From Iocasia fonsfrigidae (GTDB taxonomy: Bacteria; Bacillota; Halanaerobiia; Halanaerobiales; DTU029), in NCBI RefSeq assembly GCF_017751145.1, contig NZ_CP046640.1, positions 2,894,137-2,958,136 of the forward strand: DNA of 64,000 bases, read 5' to 3'. Made by a program: the position numbers and the translations under genes. Of the stretch, positions 35,144-48,396 are shown one piece after another. Every line of letters starts with the position of its first letter. The first letter of the stretch is position 1. Under the pieces are notes generated by a model that saw only the letters and a list, made by a program, of their open reading frames with translations, was not told the DNA's origin and made no database searches.

Positions 35144-35788
35144 CTAAAGATTTTTTATTACCTTTGTTTCCAACTGGTTGATATAAAATACTAAACCAAC
35201 CAAACTTGACGACAGATCTTCATGGTATATAATAACATCAGGGGGTAGATTTAATGGTGTGGGTGCAAAATTCCAGATTGCCTTTATTCCCACTTTCACA
35301 AGCCTTTCAGCTACCCCCTGTGCCTCTTCAACAGGAACAGCCAGAATCCCAATTTGTATTCCTCGACTAATAATACTATCCAGATTCTTAACATTTTTCA
35401 CAACTAAATTCCCTACATTGTTACCGATTTTATCCAAGTCATAATCAAACACCTCAACTATTTCCAGCCTCATCTTCTTAAACTCTTGATAGTTAATCAA
35501 AGCCCTACCCAGATTACCTGCTCCCAGCAGGACAACTGGCCAGCTTCGGTTTAACCCTAGAATCACCTCCAGAGATTTCTTTAGACCCTGTATATCATAA
35601 CCAACACCTTTACAACCAAATTCTCCGAAATATGAAAGGTCTTTTCGTACCTGGGCTGATGATGTGCCTACATCATGGCCAAGCTTTTTTGAACAGATTA
35701 CTGTCTGATCATTATTGCCTGCCAATCTTTTTAAATGACGGTAATAAGCAACTAACCGATGAATAGTTGGCTGTGGGACACTTTTCAT
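35144..35788 (-). CDS. rex: Redox-sensing transcriptional repressor Rex
   Basis: 214 residues. N-terminal winged helix (about 1-75): VPQPTIHRLVAYYRHLKRLAG, SSAQVRKDLSYFGEFGCKGVGY. C-terminal Rossmann domain with the NAD(H) motif VVLLGAGNLGRALINY (about 85-100) and the domain-swap helix at the end. Rex senses the NADH/NAD+ ratio and represses fermentation and hydrogenase genes. It begins 4 bases after the hydA stop at 35792, so it is the last gene of hydC-hydB-hydA-rex. Confidence 0.96.
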   Translation of the reverse strand: MKSVPQPTIHRLVAYYRHLKRLAGNNDQTVICSKKLGHDVGTSSAQVRKDLSYFGEFGCKGVGYDIQGLKKSLEVILGLNRSWPVVLLGAGNLGRALINYQEFKKMRLEIVEVFDYDLDKIGNNVGNLVVKNVKNLDSIISRGIQIGILAVPVEEAQGVAERLVKVGIKAIWNFAPTPLNLPPDVIIYHEDLSSSLVGLVFYINQLETKVIKNL

Positions 35789-35791
35789 ATC

Positions 35792-37504
35792 TTATACACC
35801 CCTGGCTGTATAACTGGTATGGAGTAGTTCATGGGCCCTGTGACTTCCTGGTTTTCCAAGATAATCATCATATAGTTTCTGGACATAAGAATTCTCATGT
35901 GATTTCCTCATTTTTTTCCCTTTATCAATCTCATAGATGGCTTTCATTCTTCTGGTCCGGGTTTCTTCATTTGTAGGTATTGGCTGGCCGCCACCACCCA
36001 GACAACCACCAGGGCAGGCCATTAATTCAATAAAGTGGAATTCTTCCCCGGATTTTATCCTATCCATCAGTTTTCTAACATTTCCTAACCCGTGTGCTAC
36101 ACCTCCTTTGACTTTCAAACCATTTATATCTATTTCTGCAACTTTAATACCTTCTAATCCTCTAACCATTTCAAAATCCAGTTTTTCTAATTCTTCACCA
36201 GTGATTAATTCATAAGCCGTTCTCAGTGCTGCTTCCATAACTCCACCAGTAGCACCAAAAATATCTGCTGCTCCACTGGAAACACCCATTAAGTTATCAT
36301 ATTCCTCTTCCTCTAATGCTAACATATCTATTCCAGCTGTTTTAATCATTCTGGCCAGTTCTCTGGTTGTTAAAACAAAGTCTACATCACCTTCCATCTC
36401 TGGCCGACGGGCTTCAAACTTCTTGGCAGTACAGGGCATAACAGATACTACGACTAAATCTTCAAGAGGTATATTATTTTTTTCTGCATAATATGTTTTA
36501 GCTACTGCTCCAAACATCTGCTGTGGGGATTTACAGCTGGATATATTCGGTAACAAGTCAGGATAAAAATGCTCTATAAATTTTATCCAGCCAGGGCTGC
36601 AGGAAGTTAATAAAGGTAGGATACCACCATTATTAATTCTTTCAATTAATTCTGTTCCTTCTTCCATGATCGTTAAATCAGCAGTAAAGTTAGTATCAAA
36701 AACACGGTCAAAACCTAATCTCCTCAAAGCAGCAACCATCTGCCCAGTCGCAACAGCACCTGGTTCTGCTCCAAATGGCTCGGAAATAGCTACCCTGACA
36801 GCAGGTGCAGTCTGAACTACAACATGTTTTGACGGGTCGTTAAGAACATCCCAGACATTTTCATAATGGTAGACTTCATGTAAAGCCCCTGTAGGACAGG
36901 AATGGATACACTGTCCGCAATTAGTACACTCTACATTACCCATACCCTTATCCTCAAAAGTAGTAACTATAGTAGCAGGACCCCTATTGGCCATAGTAAA
37001 TATGCCAATGCCCTGCACTTCTTCACATTTTCTAATACAACGACCACAGGTTATACATTTATTCGGTTCCCTGATAATTGAATAGCTTGATCTATCCTCT
37101 GAATAACCCTTATCCCGGGATTTTAGCCTGACCTGATTTATTCCAATGATATCCGCTGCCTGCCGTAACTCACAATTACCATTTTTACTACAGGTCAAAC
37201 AATTTAATTTGCAACTAATATCATGTGAAGCAATAATTAATTCAAAAAGGTTTCTTCTAACCTCCTGAACTTTAGGAGAATGGGTTTTTATAACCATTCC
37301 CTCCTTTATTTCCGTAGCACAGGCAGGCTGAAGAAGTCTTTCACCCTCAATTTCCACAACACACAATCTACATCCACCATAAATTGATAATCCCTCTTCA
37401 TAGCACAGGGTAGGTATTTTAATATGGGCTTTACCAGCTGCTTCCAGGATGGAACTTCCCTCATTGACGTTATAGGTCTTACCGTCAATATTTACTTGTA
37501 ACAT
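35792..37504 (-). CDS. hydA: [FeFe]-hydrogenase catalytic subunit, multimeric NAD(P)-linked type (operon 1)
   Basis: 570 residues. Order: N-terminal [2Fe-2S] domain (LCYEEGLSIYGGCRLCVVEIEG), His/Cys3 [4Fe-4S] segment (SHDISCKLNCLTCSKNGNCELR), 2[4Fe-4S] ferredoxin (CITCGRCIRKCEEVQ, CTNCGQCIHSCPTGA), H-cluster domain with TSCSPGW, MPCTAKKFE and ELMACPGGCLGGGGQP, then the small-subunit tail ending HELLHTSYTARGV. The TSCSP form is common in NAD(P)-linked multimeric enzymes. I chose the ATG at 37504 (GGTGG eight bases upstream) over the GTG at 37516. It overlaps hydB by 20 bases. Confidence 0.95.
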   Translation of the reverse strand: MLQVNIDGKTYNVNEGSSILEAAGKAHIKIPTLCYEEGLSIYGGCRLCVVEIEGERLLQPACATEIKEGMVIKTHSPKVQEVRRNLFELIIASHDISCKLNCLTCSKNGNCELRQAADIIGINQVRLKSRDKGYSEDRSSYSIIREPNKCITCGRCIRKCEEVQGIGIFTMANRGPATIVTTFEDKGMGNVECTNCGQCIHSCPTGALHEVYHYENVWDVLNDPSKHVVVQTAPAVRVAISEPFGAEPGAVATGQMVAALRRLGFDRVFDTNFTADLTIMEEGTELIERINNGGILPLLTSCSPGWIKFIEHFYPDLLPNISSCKSPQQMFGAVAKTYYAEKNNIPLEDLVVVSVMPCTAKKFEARRPEMEGDVDFVLTTRELARMIKTAGIDMLALEEEEYDNLMGVSSGAADIFGATGGVMEAALRTAYELITGEELEKLDFEMVRGLEGIKVAEIDINGLKVKGGVAHGLGNVRKLMDRIKSGEEFHFIELMACPGGCLGGGGQPIPTNEETRTRRMKAIYEIDKGKKMRKSHENSYVQKLYDDYLGKPGSHRAHELLHTSYTARGV

Positions 37505-38729
37505 AATGCTCACCACCCTTTAACTTCAATTCATCCCCAAATTTATCAAATACTGAGCCGATAAAATTAAGTGAGGTCTGACCCAAACCACAGCGGGCAG
37601 CTAGATGAATTGTAGTCCCAACATTTTTGATAAGCTCTACATCTTTTTCTGTAAACCCTTCTTTTCCTTCTTTAAGCATGTGGTAGACCTGTCTGTTCCC
37701 TTCACGGCAGGGGAAACAGGTTCCACAGGTTTCATCCATAAAAAATCTGGATACATTTAGCATTAGATCAACTAAGTCATGTCCCTCATCAACCACAATC
37801 ACTGCACCTGAACCCAGAGCACTCCCAGCACTGGCTATTCCCTCATAGGTATAGGGAACATTAAGTTCTGCTGGGGTTAAAACCTGTGTTGAAATACCTC
37901 CAGGAACAAGAAATTTAAGGGGAACATAATTCCTGATACCTTTACCAAATTGTTCAATAATCTCTCCAAGTGTTACCTGCCCAAATTCAACTTCATAGAC
38001 TCCCGGTTGATTAACGTCCCCACTTAAACAGACCAATTTGGTACCTCTACTATTTTCTGTACCTAATTCTAGATACTTATCAAGACCTTGATTGATTATC
38101 TCAACTGCAGAAACCAATGTTTCTACATTATTAACCACTGTAGGTTTATCAAAAAGTCCTTTTGCTATGGGATATGGTGGCTTTATTCTGGAACGACCCC
38201 TCTTACCTTCAATAGAATTTATTAATGATGTTTCATCACCACATACATATGCCCCAGCACCTTTCACCAGATAAAGATTAAAATTAAAACCACTATCCAG
38301 AATATTCTCTCCCAGTATCCCAGTAGCCTCTGCTTCATTAATAACCTTTTCAAAAATGTTGATGGGTCCAAGATACTCTCCCCTGATATAACAATACCCT
38401 TCGTCAGCACCAATGGCATAAGCAACAATTAAAATACCCTCCAGGACTTTAACCGGATTGTTTTCCAGTAAATAACGGTCTTTAAAGGTACCCGGTTCTC
38501 CTTCATCACCATTACAGATAATATATTTTTTGTCAGCTTCCTCTTGATAGGCAAGTTCCCATTTTAAGCCTGTCGGAAATCCTGCTCCTCCTCTACCCTT
38601 CAATCCAGATTGTTTAATGATATCTATAACCTTTTCCCGACCTAATTTCAAAGCCTTTTTCAAGTTGGAGAATTCATAATTACTAAGCTCTTTTTTCATA
38701 TCTTTTTTCAGAAATAAAGTCTCTTCCAT
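37485..38729 (-). CDS. hydB: NuoF-like flavin subunit of [FeFe]-hydrogenase (operon 1)
   Basis: 414 residues. Binds FMN and NAD(H) (SGLKGRGGAGFPTGLKW, NGDEGEPGTFKDRYLLENNPVKVLEG), has the SLBB domain and the [4Fe-4S] site ETCGTCFPCREGNRQ...CGLG. It lacks both the N-terminal thioredoxin-like [2Fe-2S] domain and the C-terminal ferredoxin of longer HydB proteins, so it is close to plain NuoF. It joins hydrogen metabolism to NAD(H). It lies 12 bases after hydC. Confidence 0.94.
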   Translation of the reverse strand: MEETLFLKKDMKKELSNYEFSNLKKALKLGREKVIDIIKQSGLKGRGGAGFPTGLKWELAYQEEADKKYIICNGDEGEPGTFKDRYLLENNPVKVLEGILIVAYAIGADEGYCYIRGEYLGPINIFEKVINEAEATGILGENILDSGFNFNLYLVKGAGAYVCGDETSLINSIEGKRGRSRIKPPYPIAKGLFDKPTVVNNVETLVSAVEIINQGLDKYLELGTENSRGTKLVCLSGDVNQPGVYEVEFGQVTLGEIIEQFGKGIRNYVPLKFLVPGGISTQVLTPAELNVPYTYEGIASAGSALGSGAVIVVDEGHDLVDLMLNVSRFFMDETCGTCFPCREGNRQVYHMLKEGKEGFTEKDVELIKNVGTTIHLAARCGLGQTSLNFIGSVFDKFGDELKLKGGEHYVTSKY

Positions 38730-38741
38730 GGCAATCCCCCC

Positions 38742-39152
38742 CTAAACACATTTTTTCAATATTTCAAGAGCCATGCTTTCATTTACATGTATATAGACGT
38801 GCTCATTAACCATCATTACCGGTCCTTCACCACAATAACCCAGACATTCTACTACTTCCAGAGTAAATAATTTATCTTTAGTTGTTTGCCCATCTTCCAG
38901 TCCCAGGTATGTTTTAATTGTCTCCAGTAATTGGTGTGAACTATTGATATGACAGGATAAACTATCACAAATTCTAATTATATACTTTCCCGTCGGTTCT
39001 GTATGGAACATAGAATAGAATTTGATGGTACCATAAACCTTTGCCCGGGGGATATTAAAATCCCTGGCAATCTTATCAATCTCTGTTTCGGGAATATATC
39101 CATAGGTGTCCTGGACATTATGCATTCTCTCCAAGAAACAGCCATAATTCAT
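38742..39152 (-). CDS. hydC: NuoE-like [2Fe-2S] subunit of [FeFe]-hydrogenase (operon 1)
   Basis: 136 residues, thioredoxin-like [2Fe-2S] ferredoxin. MHNVQDTYGYIPETEIDKIARDFNIPRAKVYGTIKFYSMF, then cluster Cys pairs in RICDSLSCHI and VECLGYCGEGPVMMVN. It is shorter at the N terminus than its operon 2 counterpart. First gene of operon 1. A sigma-54 promoter lies about 120 bases upstream (39271-39286). Confidence 0.94.
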   Translation of the reverse strand: MNYGCFLERMHNVQDTYGYIPETEIDKIARDFNIPRAKVYGTIKFYSMFHTEPTGKYIIRICDSLSCHINSSHQLLETIKTYLGLEDGQTTKDKLFTLEVVECLGYCGEGPVMMVNEHVYIHVNESMALEILKKCV

Positions 39153-39270
39153 TTTTCTATACCTCCTTTTGTGAAAATATTCCCTTTTTTAGCGATAAAA
39201 AAATAACATTTCCCCTCCTTTTTTTAATACTTGAAAATATTTTCACCTATTTTTTTGTAATACTTATAAG

Positions 39271-39286
39271 TGCATCAGCTGTGCCA
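39271..39286 (-). promoter_or_regulatory. Sigma-54 (-24/-12) promoter of hydrogenase operon 1
   Basis: The minus strand reads TGGCACAGCTGATGCA. TGGCAC is the exact -24 consensus, and GG is followed after 10 bases by the GC of the -12 (ATGCA). Transcription should begin near 39260, giving a leader of about 108 bases to hydC. I saw no TTGACA/TATAAT pair nearby that would explain the operon instead. Confidence 0.78.
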
Positions 39287-39460: not shown

Positions 39461-39482
39461 AATAATGCAGTTTTGCATTATT
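39461..39482 (-). promoter_or_regulatory. Putative enhancer site of the hydrogenase activator (operon 1)
   Basis: AATGCA-GTTT-TGCATT (39464-39479), inside a 9-bp-arm palindrome (39461-39482). It lies about 210 bases upstream of the predicted sigma-54 start. The same pattern occurs three times ahead of operon 2, which makes it a good candidate for the binding site of the sigma-54 activator at 45775-48396. Confidence 0.65.
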
Positions 39483-39633: not shown

Positions 39634-39661
39634 AAAAGACTGGAATTATATCCAGTCTTTT
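39634..39661 (-). terminator. Terminator after hydrogenase operon 2
   Basis: AAAAGACTGGA (39634-39644) and TCCAGTCTTTT (39651-39661) form a perfect 11-bp stem with a 6-base loop. The minus strand continues TTGTTT. It ends the transcript after the rex remnant. Confidence 0.82.
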
Positions 39662-39747
39662 AAAAATTAATTTTTTAAATTTTTTAATACACAATCCTCT
39701 GATCATTGTTTCAGTTCTGACATAATGAATTATCTTCCTTGTTTAGT

Positions 39748-39936
39748 CTAAAAAATAAACTGCCAATATCGGAAGATAAATCTTTTTCTAATTTGAGTTG
39801 CGAAAACCCCTACCCCTTTACCAAGCATAACTGAGGAAATAACTTGTTCTTCATCCTTACTCTCCAGTTCATCCAGGTAACGGTAATATTGAACAAGTCT
39901 CTTAACAGTCGGGTCAGGTACCTCTTTCACTTTCAA
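39748..39936 (-). pseudogene. Truncated, frameshifted rex
   Basis: The frame begins VKEVPDPTVKRLVQYYRYLDEL and continues VISSVMLGKGVGVFATQIRK, clearly the Rex winged helix. After QIRK the open frame turns to RFIFRYWQFIF and stops; in the next frame one reads DLSSDIGSLFFRLN, so a frameshift plus a deletion has removed the Rossmann domain. It sits just after hydA as the intact rex does in operon 1. Confidence 0.88.
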
Positions 39937-41645
39937 ACCCCTCTAACCACATAATGGGTATGAAGTAATTCATGGGATTTATGGCTGCCTGGTTTTTCCA
40001 GGTACTCATCATATATCTTTTTAATATAGGGGTTTTCATGGGACTTACGTATTTCTTTGTTCTGGTCAATCTCATAAAGACCTGCCCTCCGTTTGGCAAT
40101 ATTATCTTCAGTAGCAGGTAAGGGCTGACCACCCCCACCAATACAACCTCCCGGACAGGCCATAAACTCAACAAAGTGGTATTCTGCCCCATCTTTTATT
40201 CTTTCCAACAGTTCCCTGGCATTACCTAAACCATGGGCAACTGCAACCTTTAAAGTTAGATCAGCAATTGCTACTTCAGCCTCTTTGATACCATCAGCAC
40301 CCCTGACCTGAGTAAAATCTAATTCCCTAAGTTCTTCACCAGTCAAAATTTCATAAGCTGTTCTCAGGGCAGCTTCCATTACACCACCAGTAGTCCCGAA
40401 TATATCAGCCGCTCCTGAAGACACACCAAGTAACTTATCATAATCACCTTCAGGTAGATTCAAAATATCTATTCCAGCCTGTTTGATCATCCGCCCTAAT
40501 TCACGAGTAGTCAGTGCATAATCTACATCACCATTCATTTCAGACCTGCTTGCCTCAAATTTCTTCGCTGTACAGGGCATAATCGAGACTACTATCAGGT
40601 CATCTACTGAAATATCATTTTTTTCCGCATAATATGTTTTAGCAACCGAACCAAACATCTGCTGTGGTGACTTACAGGTAGAGAGATTATAAATAAATTC
40701 CGGATAATAATGCTCCAAAAACTTTATCCAACCTGGGCTACATGAAGTAAAAAGTGGTAGTGTTTCATTGTTTTTTATCCTGTCAATTAATTCTGTTCCT
40801 TCTTCCATAATTGTTAAATCTGCAGTAAAATTAGTATCAAAAACCTTATCAAAACCGAGTTCTCTCAGAGCTGAAACCATCTGACCTGTTACAATCGTAC
40901 CTGGCTCTTTCCCAAAGGCCTCTGACAGGGCGACCCGAACAGCTGGGGCAGTCTGAACAATCACATGCTTAGCAGGGTCATAAATAGCTTCCCAGACATC
41001 ATCAATATATTCTCTCTCTGTGATCGCCCCTGTTGGACATACCACTGAACACTGACCACATAAAACACAGGGACTTTCTGAAAGGCTGTTATAAAAAGCA
41101 GGTTCAACAACTGTCATAAACCCTCTTCCCTCTGGTACAATAGCCTTTACTGACTGAACTTCATGACAGACACTGACACAGCGCCTACAGAGAATACACT
41201 TTTCAGGGTCTCTATATAGAGATGGTGTTGAGACATCCTTAGTAAAAGTACTTTTTTCACCTATAAAACGAATATCACGGATCCCCATCTGTTCCGCCAG
41301 TTCTCTTAGTTCACAATCATCACTCTTAAGACAGGTAGGACAGTCTACTTTATGGTTTGATAAAAGGAATTCTAAATTCAGTCTTCTTGTCTTTCTTACC
41401 CGGGCAGTATTTGTCTTGACTCTCATGCCATCAACTGCCGGTGTTATACAGGAAGCTACTAATTTACCTGAGTCCTCTAATTCAACCAGACATAAACGAC
41501 AGGCTCCAACCTCATTTAATTCCTTTAAATAACATAATGTCGGTATATCCCTACCGGCCATCTTGGCTGCTTCCAGGAGTGTAGTACCCTGATCAACTTC
41601 AAGCTCTTCTTCATCTATCCATAGTTTTATTTTATTATCAGTCAT
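39933..41645 (-). CDS. hydA: [FeFe]-hydrogenase catalytic subunit, multimeric type (operon 2)
   Basis: 570 residues, a close paralogue of the enzyme at 35792-37504 with the same order: [2Fe-2S] (CYLKELNEVGACRLCLVELED), His/Cys3 (SNHKVDCPTCLKSDDCELR), two 4Fe-4S (CILCRRCVSVCHEVQ, CVLCGQCSVVCPTGA), H-cluster motifs TSCSPGW, MPCTAKKFE and EFMACPGGCIGGGGQP, and the small-subunit tail. The ATG at 41645 follows GAGGGGGATCGCA; the frame is open to a GTG at 41660. It adjoins the broken rex downstream. Confidence 0.95.
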   Translation of the reverse strand: MTDNKIKLWIDEEELEVDQGTTLLEAAKMAGRDIPTLCYLKELNEVGACRLCLVELEDSGKLVASCITPAVDGMRVKTNTARVRKTRRLNLEFLLSNHKVDCPTCLKSDDCELRELAEQMGIRDIRFIGEKSTFTKDVSTPSLYRDPEKCILCRRCVSVCHEVQSVKAIVPEGRGFMTVVEPAFYNSLSESPCVLCGQCSVVCPTGAITEREYIDDVWEAIYDPAKHVIVQTAPAVRVALSEAFGKEPGTIVTGQMVSALRELGFDKVFDTNFTADLTIMEEGTELIDRIKNNETLPLFTSCSPGWIKFLEHYYPEFIYNLSTCKSPQQMFGSVAKTYYAEKNDISVDDLIVVSIMPCTAKKFEASRSEMNGDVDYALTTRELGRMIKQAGIDILNLPEGDYDKLLGVSSGAADIFGTTGGVMEAALRTAYEILTGEELRELDFTQVRGADGIKEAEVAIADLTLKVAVAHGLGNARELLERIKDGAEYHFVEFMACPGGCIGGGGQPLPATEDNIAKRRAGLYEIDQNKEIRKSHENPYIKKIYDEYLEKPGSHKSHELLHTHYVVRGV

Positions 41646-41656
41646 TGCGATCCCCC

Positions 41657-44600
41657 TCACTTATTTTTTACATCACAGCGCAGACAACGTCTGGCCTCTT
41701 CAACTGCCTGGTCTTCTGAATAACCCTTTTCAACCTCTTTAAAACCCCTCTTCCGTTCTGACAACAATATAGTAGGCATCTTCACTCTTGGTCTTTCATC
41801 TTCAAGAATAGAGCCAGATACTTTGCGGTCAATCCTCTGACGGACAACTAGCTTTCCATCACCACCTAAGTATTTATCAATTGAACGGGCAGCCTCTTTA
41901 CCACCCTGGATCGCCTCTACAACAGTTGCTGGACCACTAACACAGTCCCCACCTGCAAAAACCCAGGGTATACTGGTAGTATACTGCCTGTCTATTTCAA
42001 TTAGAGCCCTATCAGTCAGACCAATACTTAATTCTCCCTCATTAAAATCTTCTTCCACATTCTGCCCGACAGCAGAGATAACCAGGTCAGCCTCCAGGAT
42101 ATAATTAGAATCCTTAACTGTTAATGGTTTTCTGCGGCCGCTATTATCAAATTCACCGCCCTTTATCCTGACACATTCCAGGCCAGTAACCCGACCATCT
42201 TCACCAATCACTTTCACCGGGTTAACCAGACAGTGTAGTTTTACTTCCTCATATTCTGCTTCTTCAATTTCTTCTCGGTGGGCAGGCATATCCTCTCTGG
42301 TCCTTCTATAAACAACATTAACTTCTTCTGCCCCTAACCTTACTACATTTCTGGCAACATCGATCGCCGCATTGCCACCACCAACAATAGCTACCTTTTT
42401 TTTCTCAATATCAAGCCTTTTACCCAGATTAATATCCCTGAGTACCTCAATACCTGAATATACACCAGTTAAATCCTCTCCATCAATACCCAGTTTACGG
42501 TCCTGATGGGCCCCAACAGCCAGGAAAACCGCTTGATAACCACTTTCTTTGAGTTCAGTTAAAGTTATATCTCTACCTATTTTGGTATCAACCACTATTT
42601 CTACTCCCATAGTGGTAAGTACTGTTATTTCTTCATTGAGAAGCTCTTTCGGCAAACGATACTCTGGTATTCCTACTGCCAGCATACCCCCAACTACTGG
42701 TAGGGCTTCAAAAATTGTTACCTGATAACCCTTTTTACGCAAATAAAAGGCAGCACTTAGTCCAGCAGGACCAGAACCTACAATAGCAATTTTTTCCCTC
42801 TTCTCCTCTTTAATTGACGGTACAGGGAACCCCCCCTCATTTTTCAGGACATAATCACTGGCAAATCTTTTTAGTTCACGTATGGCCAGTGATTCATCAA
42901 GGGAATTTCTATTACAGGCCTGTTCACAGAGATTATAACAAACCCGACCACAAATAAGAACCAGAGGATTTTCTTCCTGGACAATCTTATAGGCCTCCTT
43001 ATACTTGCCCTGTCTTATTAAATCAATATAAACAGGTATATCCACATTTGCCGGACATGAATTCTGACATGGTGAATTAAATAATGGTGCACACCTGGAG
43101 GCCTCACAATAATTATTCTCAATATGGTCAAGATACTCATCTCTAAAATACCTGATTGTACTCAAAACTGGATTTGGGGCTGTCTGTCCGAGACCACAGA
43201 AAGCAGAATCCTTTATCTGTTCACCCATTTCAATTAATAAATCCAGGTCATCTCTACTTCCCTCTCCATTAGATATTTTCTGTAAGATCTCCAGCATTCT
43301 GGTTGTCCCTATACGGCAGGGAGTACATTTACCACATGATTCATCTTTACAAAAATCAACAAAATATTTGGCCAGGTCAACCATACAGGTCTGTTCATCC
43401 ATCACAATCAGACCCCCTGAACCCATAATCGTCCCCAGTTCTTGGAGGGAATCGTAATCAATAGGCACATTCAAATACTGTACAGGTATACACCCGCCAG
43501 AAGGACCACCTGTCTGGGCCGCCTTGAACCTACCATTGTTTTCAAGACCACCACCAATATCAAAGATAATTTCTCCCAGTTTTGTACCCATCGGTATTTC
43601 AACCAGACCATTGTTTTTCACCTTCCCTGCCAGGGCAAATACCTTTGTACCAGGGCTATCTTCAGTCCCAATCGATTTAAACCACTCTTTACCCCTGTAA
43701 ATAATATCTGGGACATTGGCCAGGGTCTCAACATTATTTATAATAGTGGGTTTACCCCAGAGACCAGCTTCAGCTGGAAAGGGTGGTTTAGGTTTTGGCT
43801 CCCCCCTCTTTCCTTCAATTGAAGCCATCAAGGCTGTCTCTTCACCACAGACAAAAGCCCCTGCCCCTAGTCTAATATCAAGATGAAAATTAAAACCACT
43901 GTTAAAGATATTCTTTCCTAACAAACCTAAAATCTCTGCCTCAGCAATTGCTTTTTTGAGGCGTTTAATGGCCAGTGGATACTCTGCCCGACAGTATATA
44001 TACCCCTGACTGGCCCCAATAGCATAAGCAGCAATAGCCATTCCTTCTATTAAACGGTGTGGGTCACCTTCCAGAACACTCCTATCCATAAAAGCACCAG
44101 GGTCTCCCTCATCAGCATTACAGATAATGTACTTTTGAGCACTTTCATTATTATAAGCAAATCTCCATTTAACACCTGTAGGAAAGCCTGCACCACCCCG
44201 CCCCCTGAGCCTGGCATCACTTATTTCCTGAATGACTTCCTCGGGACTCATCTCTGTTAGGGCCTTAGCAAGGCCCATATAGGCATCACTGGCAATAGCC
44301 TCCTCAATATCTTCGGGATTAATGAGGCCGCAATTTTTCAAAACAATTCTATACTGTGGTTCAAAAAAGGGGTCATCCTCATCAATTGTCCATCTCTCTA
44401 TAATCCTGCCTTCAATTACATTTTCATTTACAATTTCCTTGGCCTTCTCCCTGTTTACATTTCCATAAATAACCCTGGTATTACCCTGCCTTATCTCCAG
44501 TAACGGCTCCCTAGCACACAAACCCAGACAACCAGTCTGTTTTACAGACACATTCTTTATATTCTGCTTATCAAGCTCCTCAAGGACTATATCCCAGACA

Positions 44601-44752
44601 TCCTGAGCCCCGGCAGCAATTCCACAGGTTCCCATGCCTATAATTATTTTCATACTATGATCAGTGTTTTTTTCTTTAAGGAATTTTTGTTTAATATCAC
44701 CAAGATTACTTAATGAATTTACCCTGTTTATTTTCAAATCCTTAACTGCCAT
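41657..44752 (-). CDS. hydB: NuoF-GltD fusion: flavin subunit of [FeFe]-hydrogenase (operon 2)
   Basis: 1031 residues in four parts: thioredoxin-like [2Fe-2S] domain (about 30-115; GTCGIAAGAQ, TGCLGLCAREP); NuoF FMN/NADH module (about 180-470; RGRGGAGFPTGVKW, CNADEGDPGAFMDRSVLEGDP); [4Fe-4S] site ESCGKCTPCRIGTTR; then instead of the usual ferredoxin a GltD/NfnB-like module (about 555-1031) with CQNSCPANVDIPVYIDLIRQG, ICGRVCYNLCEQACNR, two Rossmann loops (VGSGPAGLSAAFYL, VGGGNAAIDVARNV) and RRCLRCD. The second flavoprotein suggests NADP(H) use or flavin-based bifurcation. Overlaps hydA only in its alternative start. Confidence 0.95.
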   Translation of the reverse strand: MAVKDLKINRVNSLSNLGDIKQKFLKEKNTDHSMKIIIGMGTCGIAAGAQDVWDIVLEELDKQNIKNVSVKQTGCLGLCAREPLLEIRQGNTRVIYGNVNREKAKEIVNENVIEGRIIERWTIDEDDPFFEPQYRIVLKNCGLINPEDIEEAIASDAYMGLAKALTEMSPEEVIQEISDARLRGRGGAGFPTGVKWRFAYNNESAQKYIICNADEGDPGAFMDRSVLEGDPHRLIEGMAIAAYAIGASQGYIYCRAEYPLAIKRLKKAIAEAEILGLLGKNIFNSGFNFHLDIRLGAGAFVCGEETALMASIEGKRGEPKPKPPFPAEAGLWGKPTIINNVETLANVPDIIYRGKEWFKSIGTEDSPGTKVFALAGKVKNNGLVEIPMGTKLGEIIFDIGGGLENNGRFKAAQTGGPSGGCIPVQYLNVPIDYDSLQELGTIMGSGGLIVMDEQTCMVDLAKYFVDFCKDESCGKCTPCRIGTTRMLEILQKISNGEGSRDDLDLLIEMGEQIKDSAFCGLGQTAPNPVLSTIRYFRDEYLDHIENNYCEASRCAPLFNSPCQNSCPANVDIPVYIDLIRQGKYKEAYKIVQEENPLVLICGRVCYNLCEQACNRNSLDESLAIRELKRFASDYVLKNEGGFPVPSIKEEKREKIAIVGSGPAGLSAAFYLRKKGYQVTIFEALPVVGGMLAVGIPEYRLPKELLNEEITVLTTMGVEIVVDTKIGRDITLTELKESGYQAVFLAVGAHQDRKLGIDGEDLTGVYSGIEVLRDINLGKRLDIEKKKVAIVGGGNAAIDVARNVVRLGAEEVNVVYRRTREDMPAHREEIEEAEYEEVKLHCLVNPVKVIGEDGRVTGLECVRIKGGEFDNSGRRKPLTVKDSNYILEADLVISAVGQNVEEDFNEGELSIGLTDRALIEIDRQYTTSIPWVFAGGDCVSGPATVVEAIQGGKEAARSIDKYLGGDGKLVVRQRIDRKVSGSILEDERPRVKMPTILLSERKRGFKEVEKGYSEDQAVEEARRCLRCDVKNK

Positions 44753-44763
44753 GATAACCCTCC

Positions 44764-45342
44764 TTAGATCTCTCCCTTTTTGTATTTTTCAACAATATTG
44801 ACGGCTTTTTCTGGATTCAATAAACCGTGCGCCTTACCATTTACTGTCATAACCGGTCCTAATCCACAGGCACCAAGACACCTGACTACTTCAAGTGATA
44901 ACAAACCATCATCTGTTGTTTCACCAGCCTCAAGATTATATTTTGACTTTATTTTTTCTATAATTTCCGCTGAGCCCTTAACATAACAGGCAGTTCCTTT
45001 ACAAAGTGCAATCTGATACTTACCCTTGGGCCTTTCCGAAAAATGTGCATAAAAAGACATAACACTGGCTACCTCACCTGGGGTTATCTTTAATCCCCTG
45101 GCAATCTTTTTCTGAACAGCCTTAGGAACAAAACCTATTAATTCCTGTGCCTGGTGAAGGACTTCCAACAGGGCATCTTCCTGTCCCCTGTTTTTTTCTA
45201 TAATCCCCTCCAGTTCCTGATGTACAATATCAATTACTGATTCCTCTTCCCGTTCTTTTACTATCTCTGCTAATTTAGTACTCACCCGACTCCAATCCAC
45301 TTCCTTTAGTTCCTGGAGTTCTTTTTCAAGTAGTGCTGACAT
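44764..45342 (-). CDS. hydC: NuoE-like [2Fe-2S] subunit of [FeFe]-hydrogenase (operon 2)
   Basis: 192 residues. The first 60 are a helical extension (LLEKELQELKEVDWSRVSTKLAEIVKER), then the NuoE domain: LLEVLHQAQELIGFVPKAVQKKIARGLKITPGEVASVMSFYAHF with cluster Cys in ALCKGTACYVKG and VRCLGACGLGPVMTVN. First gene of operon 2; a sigma-54 promoter is about 145 bases upstream. It is 56 residues longer than the paralogue in operon 1. Confidence 0.94.
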   Translation of the reverse strand: MSALLEKELQELKEVDWSRVSTKLAEIVKEREEESVIDIVHQELEGIIEKNRGQEDALLEVLHQAQELIGFVPKAVQKKIARGLKITPGEVASVMSFYAHFSERPKGKYQIALCKGTACYVKGSAEIIEKIKSKYNLEAGETTDDGLLSLEVVRCLGACGLGPVMTVNGKAHGLLNPEKAVNIVEKYKKGEI

Positions 45343-45484: not shown

Positions 45485-45500
45485 TGCAGAAGGTATACCA
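45485..45500 (-). promoter_or_regulatory. Sigma-54 (-24/-12) promoter of hydrogenase operon 2
   Basis: The minus strand reads TGGTATACCTTCTGCA. GG and GC are 10 bases apart and the sequence fits the degenerate consensus TGGYAYR-N4-YTGCW, though it is weaker than that of operon 1. The start of transcription would be near 45474. Confidence 0.65.
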
Positions 45501-45640: not shown

Positions 45641-45650
45641 CAAGGGGGAA

Positions 45651-45776
45651 TAATGCATATATGCATTAAATATTATGTTTAAATATATTTTGCCTTATTT
45701 TAATAACTAATATATCGGCAAGTGTGATATCATACATTTTCATGCAGTAGTGCATTGAATAATGCGCTACTGCATT
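45651..45776 (-). promoter_or_regulatory. Three putative enhancer sites upstream of hydrogenase operon 2
   Basis: AATGCA-TATA-TGCATT (45652-45667, inside an 18-bp perfect palindrome), CATGCA-GTAG-TGCATT (45741-45756) and AATGCG-CTAC-TGCATT (45761-45776). The last two are 20 bp apart centre to centre, so on the same face of the helix; the third overlaps the activator stop codon. They lie about 185, 275 and 295 bases upstream of the predicted start, normal distances for sigma-54 enhancers. Confidence 0.65.
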
Positions 45777-48396
45777 AAGAAAAATATTTCTTTAGTTTCC
45801 GAACAATAGTAGACTGATTCACCCCCAGCATTTCAGCCATATCATAAGTTGTCTTTCCCTTTTCTCTGGCCAGTATTAATAATTTCTTTTCCAGCTGGCT
45901 AACAGCATCCTGTAGAGGTATAATACCTTTAATCTCTACTTCAGTATCACTGTTAATCCTTTCAAACTCAATAAACCTCTCTAAAAAATCCTTATCTATC
46001 AAACCACCATCAGCTGTAACAACAACCCTTTCCAGTAAATTGGCTACTTCCCTTACATTACCAGGCCAATCATAATCCAACAAGAGCTCACTTAGGTCAT
46101 CATTCAGTTTTATATCTTTACCGTATTTATTATTAAATAGATTCAAAAAATATCTCACCAGTGCCAGAATATCCTCAGGCCTTTTCCGTAAAGGGGGAAT
46201 AGTTATGGGAACAACATTTAAACGGTAATATAAATCCTCACGAAAACAATTTTTCTCCACCATTTCCTTTAGATTTTTATTAGTAGCGGTTATTAAACGA
46301 AAATCTACTTTAATAGCCTCTATCCCACCAATCCTGGTCAAGCTGTGTTCCTGCAAAACCTGAAGTAACTTAGCCTGCATATTTAAAGGCATTTCTCCAA
46401 TTTCATCAAGAAATAATGTCCCTCCATCGGCTTTTTCTATCAAACCCTGTTTGCCTTCTCTTTTGGCACCACTAAAGGCCCCTGTTTCATATCCAAAAAG
46501 CTCTGATTCCAGAAGGCTTTCCGGGATAGCAGCACAATTTATTTTCACCAGCACATCCCTGGCCTGACTCTGTTCATGAATATAACGGGCAATAACCTCT
46601 TTACCTACCCCTGACTCACCCATTAGTAAGACACTTGAATCTGTATTACTTATCTTTCTAGCCAGGTTCAAAATATTCTCCATAATAACCGAATTAGCTA
46701 TTATATGACCTAGATTATCATCATTATCATGATTTATATCTCCCTGCAGGTATTCCCTTAATTTCTCTTTCTCATTACTACTCTCATTAAGTTTATTTAA
46801 TTCAGAGAGGTTTCTAGTATTAGCTACAACATGTAATACATCACCAGCATTATCCAGCAGTGGGCTGCCTGTTGTCAGCAATCGCTGCCCATTTTTAGTA
46901 TTTTGTATCAAGGTAATTTCCCGTTTTTCCCGAAGACACAGCCTGGAAACCGAAGGGTAAATATATCTCTCTTCCTCCAATTGAAGGACATTCTTATGGA
47001 GTATTTCTTCTTTTGAAAGACCAAGTAAAGATAAATAGGCCTCATTTACCCTCTCAATCTCCCCTTTCTTATTTACCATAATCATACCATCATATGATGT
47101 ATTAATAAGGGTATCCAGCTCCCTGTTTAGCTCCTGAACCCTTTTTATCTCTGTTCTTTTTTCACTTAAGAGGTAAGGCAGGCACATTTCTACCTCTGCT
47201 AATCCCTGATAAACAGCTACTGCCTTTTCTCTACATGATGAATATCCACAGGCCCCACAATCAAGTAAATCACTCTCATCATATTTACCAGTCTGAGCTA
47301 AAATACGCCATATTTCCTTCTCAAGAGGCTGGTCAAGTTCTTTATAGTCAATCTGAAATGAGGTTGATAGGTCAAGTAATCCTATCTTATCCCATGAATA
47401 GACTCCTGTCCTGTCCAAGGCCTGATTATTAATATAATCATCAACTGCCCTCTCTTTTTTAAAATAATTCCCCTGGGCAAGGTCAACACCATTTATACAA
47501 CCATCACAAAATAATATATCAACAAATTCCGGAGATATCTCTTTATCCAGCAGGCTATTAAATAATTCAAAAACCTTTTGACTGCCTTCAACCTTCAGGA
47601 AAGAATTTATACTACGATCATAATTACTACTGACAGCTGTTAATAAACCACCTGCCAGAGGCAAAGCCCTGGCCTCATCTGTAGGCTGAATCACCCTGGA
47701 AACAGCAGTATCCAAATCTTTCTCTTTAGATTCAGGGACTTTAAACCCTTTTAAACTGTTAATCTCACTAAAGGTTAAGACAAAACAATCTTTGAGATCA
47801 TTAAACTCACCTTTTTTTGCCAGACATGGACCGATCATTACTACCTTAGCATCAGGGCCCTCTATTAGTTTAATATAACGATAAAGAGCCATCATCGGTG
47901 AAACAATAGGCACCAGATTTTCTACCAGTTGAGGGTAATGTTTTTGTATAAGATTTACTATCACAGGGCAGGCAGAACTAATCAGGGGTTTATCAGCTTT
48001 AGTCTTTAATAATTTACTATATTCCTCAATTATTAACTGGGCCCCCCAGGCCACTTCATATACCTCAGCAAAACCAATAGAATAAAGCATAGCTATCCAG
48101 TCATCTGCAGTAAAAACACCTTCCACTTCATATGATGGAAAACTGGGGGCAATTCCCGCAATTACCCTCTCCCCAGCTGCCAGCAGTTTCCTTACCTCTG
48201 CTGTTTCATCACGGACTTTTTTGGCCCCCTGTGAACAAACCCGAACACAATTTCCACAGTGAATACATCTATCCCCTAAAACCTCAGCTTGACCATCTTT
48301 AACCCTAACTGCCTTGGCAGGGCAATTCCTGACACAGGCATAACACTCATGACATCTATCTTCAATAGTCCGAATTAAATTGACTGGATCTGCCAT
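45775..48396 (-). CDS. Sigma-54 enhancer-binding regulator with an [FeFe]-hydrogenase sensor module
   Basis: 873 residues. Two 4Fe-4S clusters (Cys 15/18/21/25 and 44/47/50/54); [FeFe]-hydrogenase-like domain (about 75-350) with SSACP (Cys143), GPCLAKK (Cys191) and FCDGC (Cys297, Cys300), so the H-cluster Cys ligands seem kept while Ala142 stands where classic enzymes have the proton-transfer Cys; a CGACGYSSC cluster domain (380-405); PAS (about 425-530); AAA+ sigma-54 domain with Walker A GESGVGKE (593), GAFSGA (639-644, Ser instead of Thr) and Walker B LFLDEI; C-terminal TyrR-like HTH (848-870). It probably senses H2 or redox state and activates the adjacent hydrogenase operons. AGGGGTGAAATAA precedes the ATG. 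Confidence 0.93.
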   Translation of the reverse strand: MADPVNLIRTIEDRCHECYACVRNCPAKAVRVKDGQAEVLGDRCIHCGNCVRVCSQGAKKVRDETAEVRKLLAAGERVIAGIAPSFPSYEVEGVFTADDWIAMLYSIGFAEVYEVAWGAQLIIEEYSKLLKTKADKPLISSACPVIVNLIQKHYPQLVENLVPIVSPMMALYRYIKLIEGPDAKVVMIGPCLAKKGEFNDLKDCFVLTFSEINSLKGFKVPESKEKDLDTAVSRVIQPTDEARALPLAGGLLTAVSSNYDRSINSFLKVEGSQKVFELFNSLLDKEISPEFVDILFCDGCINGVDLAQGNYFKKERAVDDYINNQALDRTGVYSWDKIGLLDLSTSFQIDYKELDQPLEKEIWRILAQTGKYDESDLLDCGACGYSSCREKAVAVYQGLAEVEMCLPYLLSEKRTEIKRVQELNRELDTLINTSYDGMIMVNKKGEIERVNEAYLSLLGLSKEEILHKNVLQLEEERYIYPSVSRLCLREKREITLIQNTKNGQRLLTTGSPLLDNAGDVLHVVANTRNLSELNKLNESSNEKEKLREYLQGDINHDNDDNLGHIIANSVIMENILNLARKISNTDSSVLLMGESGVGKEVIARYIHEQSQARDVLVKINCAAIPESLLESELFGYETGAFSGAKREGKQGLIEKADGGTLFLDEIGEMPLNMQAKLLQVLQEHSLTRIGGIEAIKVDFRLITATNKNLKEMVEKNCFREDLYYRLNVVPITIPPLRKRPEDILALVRYFLNLFNNKYGKDIKLNDDLSELLLDYDWPGNVREVANLLERVVVTADGGLIDKDFLERFIEFERINSDTEVEIKGIIPLQDAVSQLEKKLLILAREKGKTTYDMAEMLGVNQSTIVRKLKKYFS

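Follow-up and report, generated by a model that had tools for sequence, protein, structure and literature searches.

What was the short open frame directly behind the second of two hydrogenase operons in the salt-loving bacterium Iocasia fonsfrigidae, and can it still act? The window analyzed here is a stretch of 64,000 nucleotides of this genome (G000:C1:2894137-2958136). It carries two tandem [FeFe]-hydrogenase operons, both on the minus strand, and the frame of interest has 62 codons (39748..39936, minus strand). The original prediction was that this locus is a dead copy of rex behind the second hydrogenase. Our analysis agrees with it: the frame matches PF06971, both ends of the gene are present, the middle is missing and the frames of the two ends disagree. 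The locus is very probably a pseudogene of a rex that once ended operon 2 (hydC2-hydB2-hydA2-rex) and whose middle was removed by an internal deletion. The way in which the gene was broken differs from that originally proposed.

Results

Two tandem hydrogenase operons

All genes described here are on the minus strand. Operon 2 consists of hydC2 (44764..45342), encoding a thioredoxin-like [2Fe-2S] subunit (Pfam PF01257), hydB2 (41657..44752) and hydA2 (39933..41660). The hydB2 product is a NuoF-type subunit of 1031 aa fused to a GltD-like pyridine-nucleotide oxidoreductase (diaphorase), with the Pfam domains Complex1_51K, NADH_4Fe-4S, Fer4_20 and Pyr_redox_2. The hydA2 product is the [FeFe] hydrogenase large subunit, identified by Pfam and by the NCBIfam model FeFe_hydrog_A6 (888.4 bits, cut-off 765). 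Operon 1 (35792..39152; Pfam) contains hydC1 (38742..39152), hydB1 (37485..38729) and hydA1 (35792..37516), and its hydB1 encodes a 414-aa core without the fusion found in hydB2. As originally predicted, an intact rex occupies the matching place in operon 1. This gene, rex1 (35144..35788), encodes 214 aa with both PF06971 and PF02629, scores 250.9 bits against NCBIfam NF003995 (cut-off 126) and is located ~4 kb from the remnant, which lies directly 3' of hydA2. The genome has three full-length rex genes besides the remnant. Apart from rex1, a full rex (G000:C1:3006820; L003 1501-3493) is found directly behind a hydrogenase-like stretch (~29% to HydA2). Downstream of the remnant, a stem-loop with a T-rich 3' arm (39634..39661, minus strand) is a possible terminator of operon 2. 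Its predicted RNA fold has an energy of -15.1 kcal/mol (z -3.77), which was equalled by 0 of 200 shuffles; a terminator scan reported none.

The 5' part of the remnant

The 62-codon frame matches the Pfam family Put_DNA-bind_N (PF06971) with an E value of 8.4e-15 and 55.0 bits (cut-off 27), and the match spans frame residues 5-51 and profile positions 1-46 of 49. When the remnant is aligned with its relatives, its start is a GTG at 39930, and the mechanical ORF start is a TTG at 39936. The 5' part of the remnant (39784..39930, minus strand) therefore has 49 codons. It encodes the Rex N-terminal domain and ends in the recognition helix at QIRK. It had been proposed that the DNA-binding domain is readable up to QIRK. 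The N-terminal domain is indeed readable, but QIRK falls within the recognition helix and precedes the wing. The glycine-rich wing is absent, since the sequence stops at QIRK and is followed by out-of-frame residues. The predicted loss of the NADH domain was borne out: no Pfam match to the NAD(H)-binding Rossmann domain (PF02629), which is present in rex1, was found in the 62-codon frame. Against the NCBIfam Rex models, the remnant reached 44.2 bits at best, below the cut-off of 126, and the operon-2 rex of a sister genus (L035) reached 252.9 bits.

Over 49 residues, the remnant and rex1 share 47% identity (tblastn E 2.9e-10), and a comparison of the two at the DNA level gave no real match. 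The paralogue is thus too diverged, and a sister orthologue is needed as the reference. G001 and G004, two sister genera in the same family as I. fonsfrigidae (G000), share this tandem arrangement of operon 2 and operon 1, and in both genera each operon is followed by an intact rex. The operon-2 rex genes of G001 and G004 encode 208 aa each. The 5' part of the remnant shares 96/147 bases and 32/49 residues with the one in G001, and 98/147 bases and 33/49 residues with the one in G004. Identity to the four operon-1 rex compared is 23-27/49 residues.

The tail is the Rex C-terminus

The 3' part of the remnant (39711..39782, minus strand) encodes the last helix of Rex, DLSSDIGSLFFRLNKEDNSLCQN, followed by a stop codon, as judged by blastn, shuffles and register. 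This swapped-helix coding stretch is out of frame with the 5' part. The tail matched the 3' end of the sister rex (L035, G001) in blastn at 35/48 bases (E 3e-5). In ungapped comparison with each sister operon-2 rex, the tail fitted best at base 573 of 627, with 32/45 identical bases in G001 and 29/45 in G004; the next best registers gave 24 and 21. The local score of the tail against the C-terminal 70 bases was matched by 0/2000 shuffles for G001 and 13/2000 for G004, whereas that against the wing stretch was matched by 197/2000 and 392/2000, respectively. At the protein level, the tail DLSSDIGSLFFRLNKE scored highest against the C-termini DLSSGIGSLIYRLKQV and DLSSGIGCLIFNLKNI. The match between tail and C-terminus is weaker for G004 than for G001.

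The tail was also considered as a continuation into the wing (RKDLSYFG of intact Rex), a reading ruled out by the shuffle control and the register at base 573 of 627.

Because the tail is the Rex C-terminus, the damage is an internal deletion; the 3' end was not lost behind a frameshift. The original prediction had placed a frameshift after QIRK, with DLSSDIGS continuing in the next frame. The frame does change, at a run of five A in the minus-strand reading (39783..39787) that is the deletion junction, but DLSSDIGS belongs to the C-terminal end and does not continue the domain. The last 11 residues of the 62-codon frame come from an out-of-frame reading of the 3' part. Judged from the sequence, the remnant is longer (to 39711) and differently broken than had been held.

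A deletion of 425 bp

In the remnant, 147 bases from the 5' end run directly into the equivalent of the final 54 bases in the sister genes. Compared with either sister operon-2 rex, 425 bp (3n+2) are missing. In the sister genes, the two breakpoints fall in sequences that resemble each other and code for R-K-D-L-S and E-D-L-S-S. We propose that an internal deletion of ~425 bp began midway through the recognition helix and stopped shortly before the last helix, and that the ends would have been joined out of frame in the A-run in one event. Alternatively, the similar RKDLS and EDLSS stretches may first have been joined in frame, with a one-base slip afterwards. Either history fits, and the NAD(H) domain is gone both ways.

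The rex gene is intact in the sister genera and the frame change sits in a homopolymer, as might be expected if the assembly or the reads were at fault and the organism had an intact rex. A one-base error at the run of five A could hide an in-frame join; it could not explain ~425 missing bases, and a 425-bp gap with clean ends in one contig would be an unusual error. In addition, none of the 17 rex compared shares more than 33/49 residues with the 5' part, and a chimeric origin from another copy is thereby ruled out. An artefact is therefore highly improbable.

On the sequence as it stands, the wing, the linker, the NAD(H) domain and the reading frame are lost from operon 2. A functional repressor would no longer be made, and the operon-2 mRNA would still include the remnant at its 3' end. 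The remaining Rex proteins, most simply rex1, may have taken over control of the operons together with the sigma-54 type activator encoded nearby. With three full-length rex genes left in the genome, the decay of a redundant regulator is plausible.

Intact rex genes behind hydA2 in relatives

A search for hydB2 covered 61 genomes, consisting of that of I. fonsfrigidae and 60 relatives, and among the matches listed the full-length hydB2 fusion was found in at least 18 of them, including its own. The place behind hydA2 was read in 16 of the 17 relatives. The other relative, G022, was dropped as its contig ends just behind hydB2; it has a rex on another contig. The comparison with related genomes that had been suggested with the original prediction proved informative: rex is intact behind hydA2 in the sister genera G001 and G004, and also in G010 and G019. 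The remaining 12 relatives have no rex at this place. A six-frame search with a 36-sequence Rex profile (E <=1) found no rex remnant behind hydA2 in these 12, one of which (G008) offers only 640 bp of downstream sequence. The sole weak hit was antisense (E 0.69) and came from G019, which has an intact rex. Matches to operon-2 rex contained one inner stop in G001 and two in G019. These stops reflect over-extended alignments, because the rex frames (208 aa in G001, 205 aa in G019) end there.

In a Rex tree of 18 rows, the operon-2 rex of G001 and G004 form a group with the remnant (96/93), and no other branch is starred; in this analysis the remnant fills only 23% of the columns, two rows are long-branched and the bootstrap is not fully settled. 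The rex genes of operon 1 and operon 2 together form one group (86/100), and those of operon 2 form another (94/91). The branch length of the remnant is 0.60, compared with 0.37 and 0.35. The HydA tree was built by a quick method from 22 rows, with 12 of the 18 operon-2 HydA and with partial operon-1 rows for G001 and G004. In it, the operon-1 HydA of G000, G001, G004 and G012 are one clade (100), which is sister to the operon-2 HydA rows of the order (joint support 98). The HydA2 of three genomes from outside the Halanaerobiales branch outside both operon groups.

The HydA tree suggests that the operons are related by a duplication older than the split of these Halanaerobiales families. The loss of rex from operon 2 came later, on the branch of G000 and long after the duplication; the genus Iocasia is represented by one genome, that of the window. 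Strains NS-1 and SP3-1 (CP032760) of I. fonsfrigidae have an ANI of 97.64% (PMC9587714). The original prediction of an operon duplication with decay of rex thus holds for the duplication, as seen in both trees, but the duplication is old and the decay is a separate, later event. Had the whole operon been duplicated recently, with the second rex decaying at once as redundant, the HydA and Rex of both operons would also be sister groups, as they are. However, HydA1 and HydA2 are only ~60% identical and the two hydB products differ in length (414 and 1031 aa). The tandem with both rex intact is common to G001 and G004, and the remnant groups with the operon-2 rex of these genera and not with rex1. 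Together with the trees, the shared tandem indicates that the decay of rex did not follow directly from a recent duplication; we consider a recent duplication of this kind extremely improbable.

Possible residual function of the remnant

In the accessible text of a study of Thermotoga maritima Rex (PMC8836258), the recognition helix comprises residues 43-54 and the wing residues 55-65. The last helix of Rex reaches into the partner subunit and helps to form the dimer, as described there and, for the swapped helix, in the accessible text of a second paper (PMC8063818). Through the alignment with rex1, the remnant ends at the residue aligned with T. maritima Lys49. The remnant therefore lacks the entire wing, roughly half of the recognition helix and the regions that form the dimer. 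An AlphaFold model of rex1 has the recognition helix at residues 44-52 and the last helix at 194-213; it is a mediocre model (3-row alignment; best mean pLDDT 79, other four 51-58) and serves to place helices only.

It had been suggested that a truncated Rex wing could still be made and compete for DNA. This idea fails since the wing itself is deleted and the last, dimer-swapping helix is out of frame. A related possibility is that the remnant makes a short helix-turn-helix protein of ~60 residues, which would act as a dominant-negative form or a mini-regulator by competing for DNA or subunits. By eye, an AGAGGGG stretch precedes the GTG start of the open frame, the 49 kept codons contain zero stops, and the residues aligned with the DNA contacts Gln46, Arg48 and Lys49 of T. 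maritima Rex are retained. Changes unique to the remnant amount to 7/80 at codon positions 1 and 2, which is no excess, and 13/20 at position 3. The corresponding counts for the intact orthologues are 8/81 and 10/17 in G001 and 6/79 and 10/17 in G004. This intact-like pattern could reflect either a recent deletion or remaining constraint, and the counts are too small to tell which. The loss of the wing and half of the recognition helix, of the Rossmann domain and of an in-frame last helix argues against such a protein. Moreover, five inner residues of the remnant are seen in 0/36 other Rex, among them F43, which precedes the recognition helix; this count has no intact-Rex baseline. These residues and the longer branch point to a relaxed state. 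A short protein acting in this manner is very unlikely. We give equally little credence to selection on the 49 codons for a mini helix-turn-helix peptide, made from the operon-2 mRNA, that would tune the remaining Rex, by which a redundant repressor would have turned into an anti-repressor.

Elements upstream of the operons

Seven upstream regions were compared, those of hydC1 and hydC2 in G000, G001 and G004 and that of hydC2 in G010. All seven contain a sigma-54-like element that reads TGGYA-N6-WTGC or closely resembles it, 134-165 bases before the set start codon. In G000 it is located at 39272-39286 for hydC1 and at 45486-45500 for hydC2, the latter with two departures from TGGCA-N6-TTGC. 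Upstream of this element is a palindrome, TAATGC-N6-GCATTA, with no mismatch in five regions and one mismatch in two. Its positions in G000 (39462-39481, 45650-45669 and 45759-45778) mark a candidate enhancer site. Across the whole G000 genome, TTAATGC-N6-GCATTAW with at most one mismatch occurs at six places, and the backwards control at 0. Two of these are perfect and lie upstream of operon 2; one with one mismatch lies upstream of operon 1 and three with one mismatch are elsewhere. A sigma-54 activator with hydrogenase-like H-cluster, FeS and PAS domains (45775..48396, minus strand; Pfam) is encoded just upstream of operon 2, and its relatives are found upstream of hydC2 in several of the related genomes. 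It is possibly a one-protein H2-sensing activator and would be the obvious candidate to bind the palindrome. A sigma-70 scan between the operons gave 4 matches against a shuffle mean of 4.0, and hence no excess.

Downstream of the sigma-54-like element, GTGAAA is found (TGTGAAA in six of the seven regions), and TTCACAA starts 51-83 bases later. These two leader elements, TGTGAAA and TTCACAA, resemble the halves of the S. aureus Rex box, given as TTGTGAAW4TTCACAA in the accessible text of its report (PMC2883068). In the operon 1 leader (39150-39252, minus strand), GTGAAAATATTTTCAA and AATATTTTCACAA are ~62 bp apart. Their sequences would suit either two Rex-box-like sites or the arms of a long RNA hairpin extending to the ribosome-binding site. 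RNA folding of this leader gave z values of -4.7 (G000), -3.9 (G001) and -2.1 (G004); those of the operon 2 leader were moderate at best, at -1.7, -1.7 and +0.7, respectively. A search of the G000 genome for TTGTGAA-N4-TTCACAA with at most two mismatches showed weak enrichment (30 places, compared with 19 in the backwards control), and the leader elements of both operons were not among these matches. For these reasons, we regard the leader elements as candidate Rex operators and do not claim them as proven. Palindromes with perfect arms, TTGTTAA-N4-TTAACAA, a form of clostridial Rex operators, are found at G000:C1:1267714, 1267971, 2538562 and 3012345.

Discussion

Our analysis provides a clear case in which one of two tandem hydrogenase operons lost its local redox repressor, with two sister genera retaining both rex genes. 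It also cautions against taking an out-of-frame tail for a surviving DNA-binding wing. For studies of hydrogenase control in the Halanaerobiales, the presence or absence of a dedicated rex in operon 2 offers a natural comparison.

Among the titles and abstract beginnings surveyed, none described a rex pseudogene in a hydrogenase operon. The process is ordinary gene decay, a pseudogene beside a working copy, with both ends kept and the middle gone. Compared with the redox-sensing transcriptional repressor Rex as defined by NCBIfam NF003995 and by PF06971 with PF02629, the remnant shares the first 49 residues, the last helix and the place behind a hydrogenase operon that rex has in the sister genera. 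It differs in having no wing, linker or NAD(H) domain and in the different frames of its two ends. rex1, intact behind the neighbouring operon, is its paralogue. The closest counterparts are the operon-2 rex genes of the sister genera (L035/L069 in G001 and L070 in G004). They are intact, occupy the orthologous place behind hydA2, and are 65% and 68% identical to the remnant over the N-terminal stretch.
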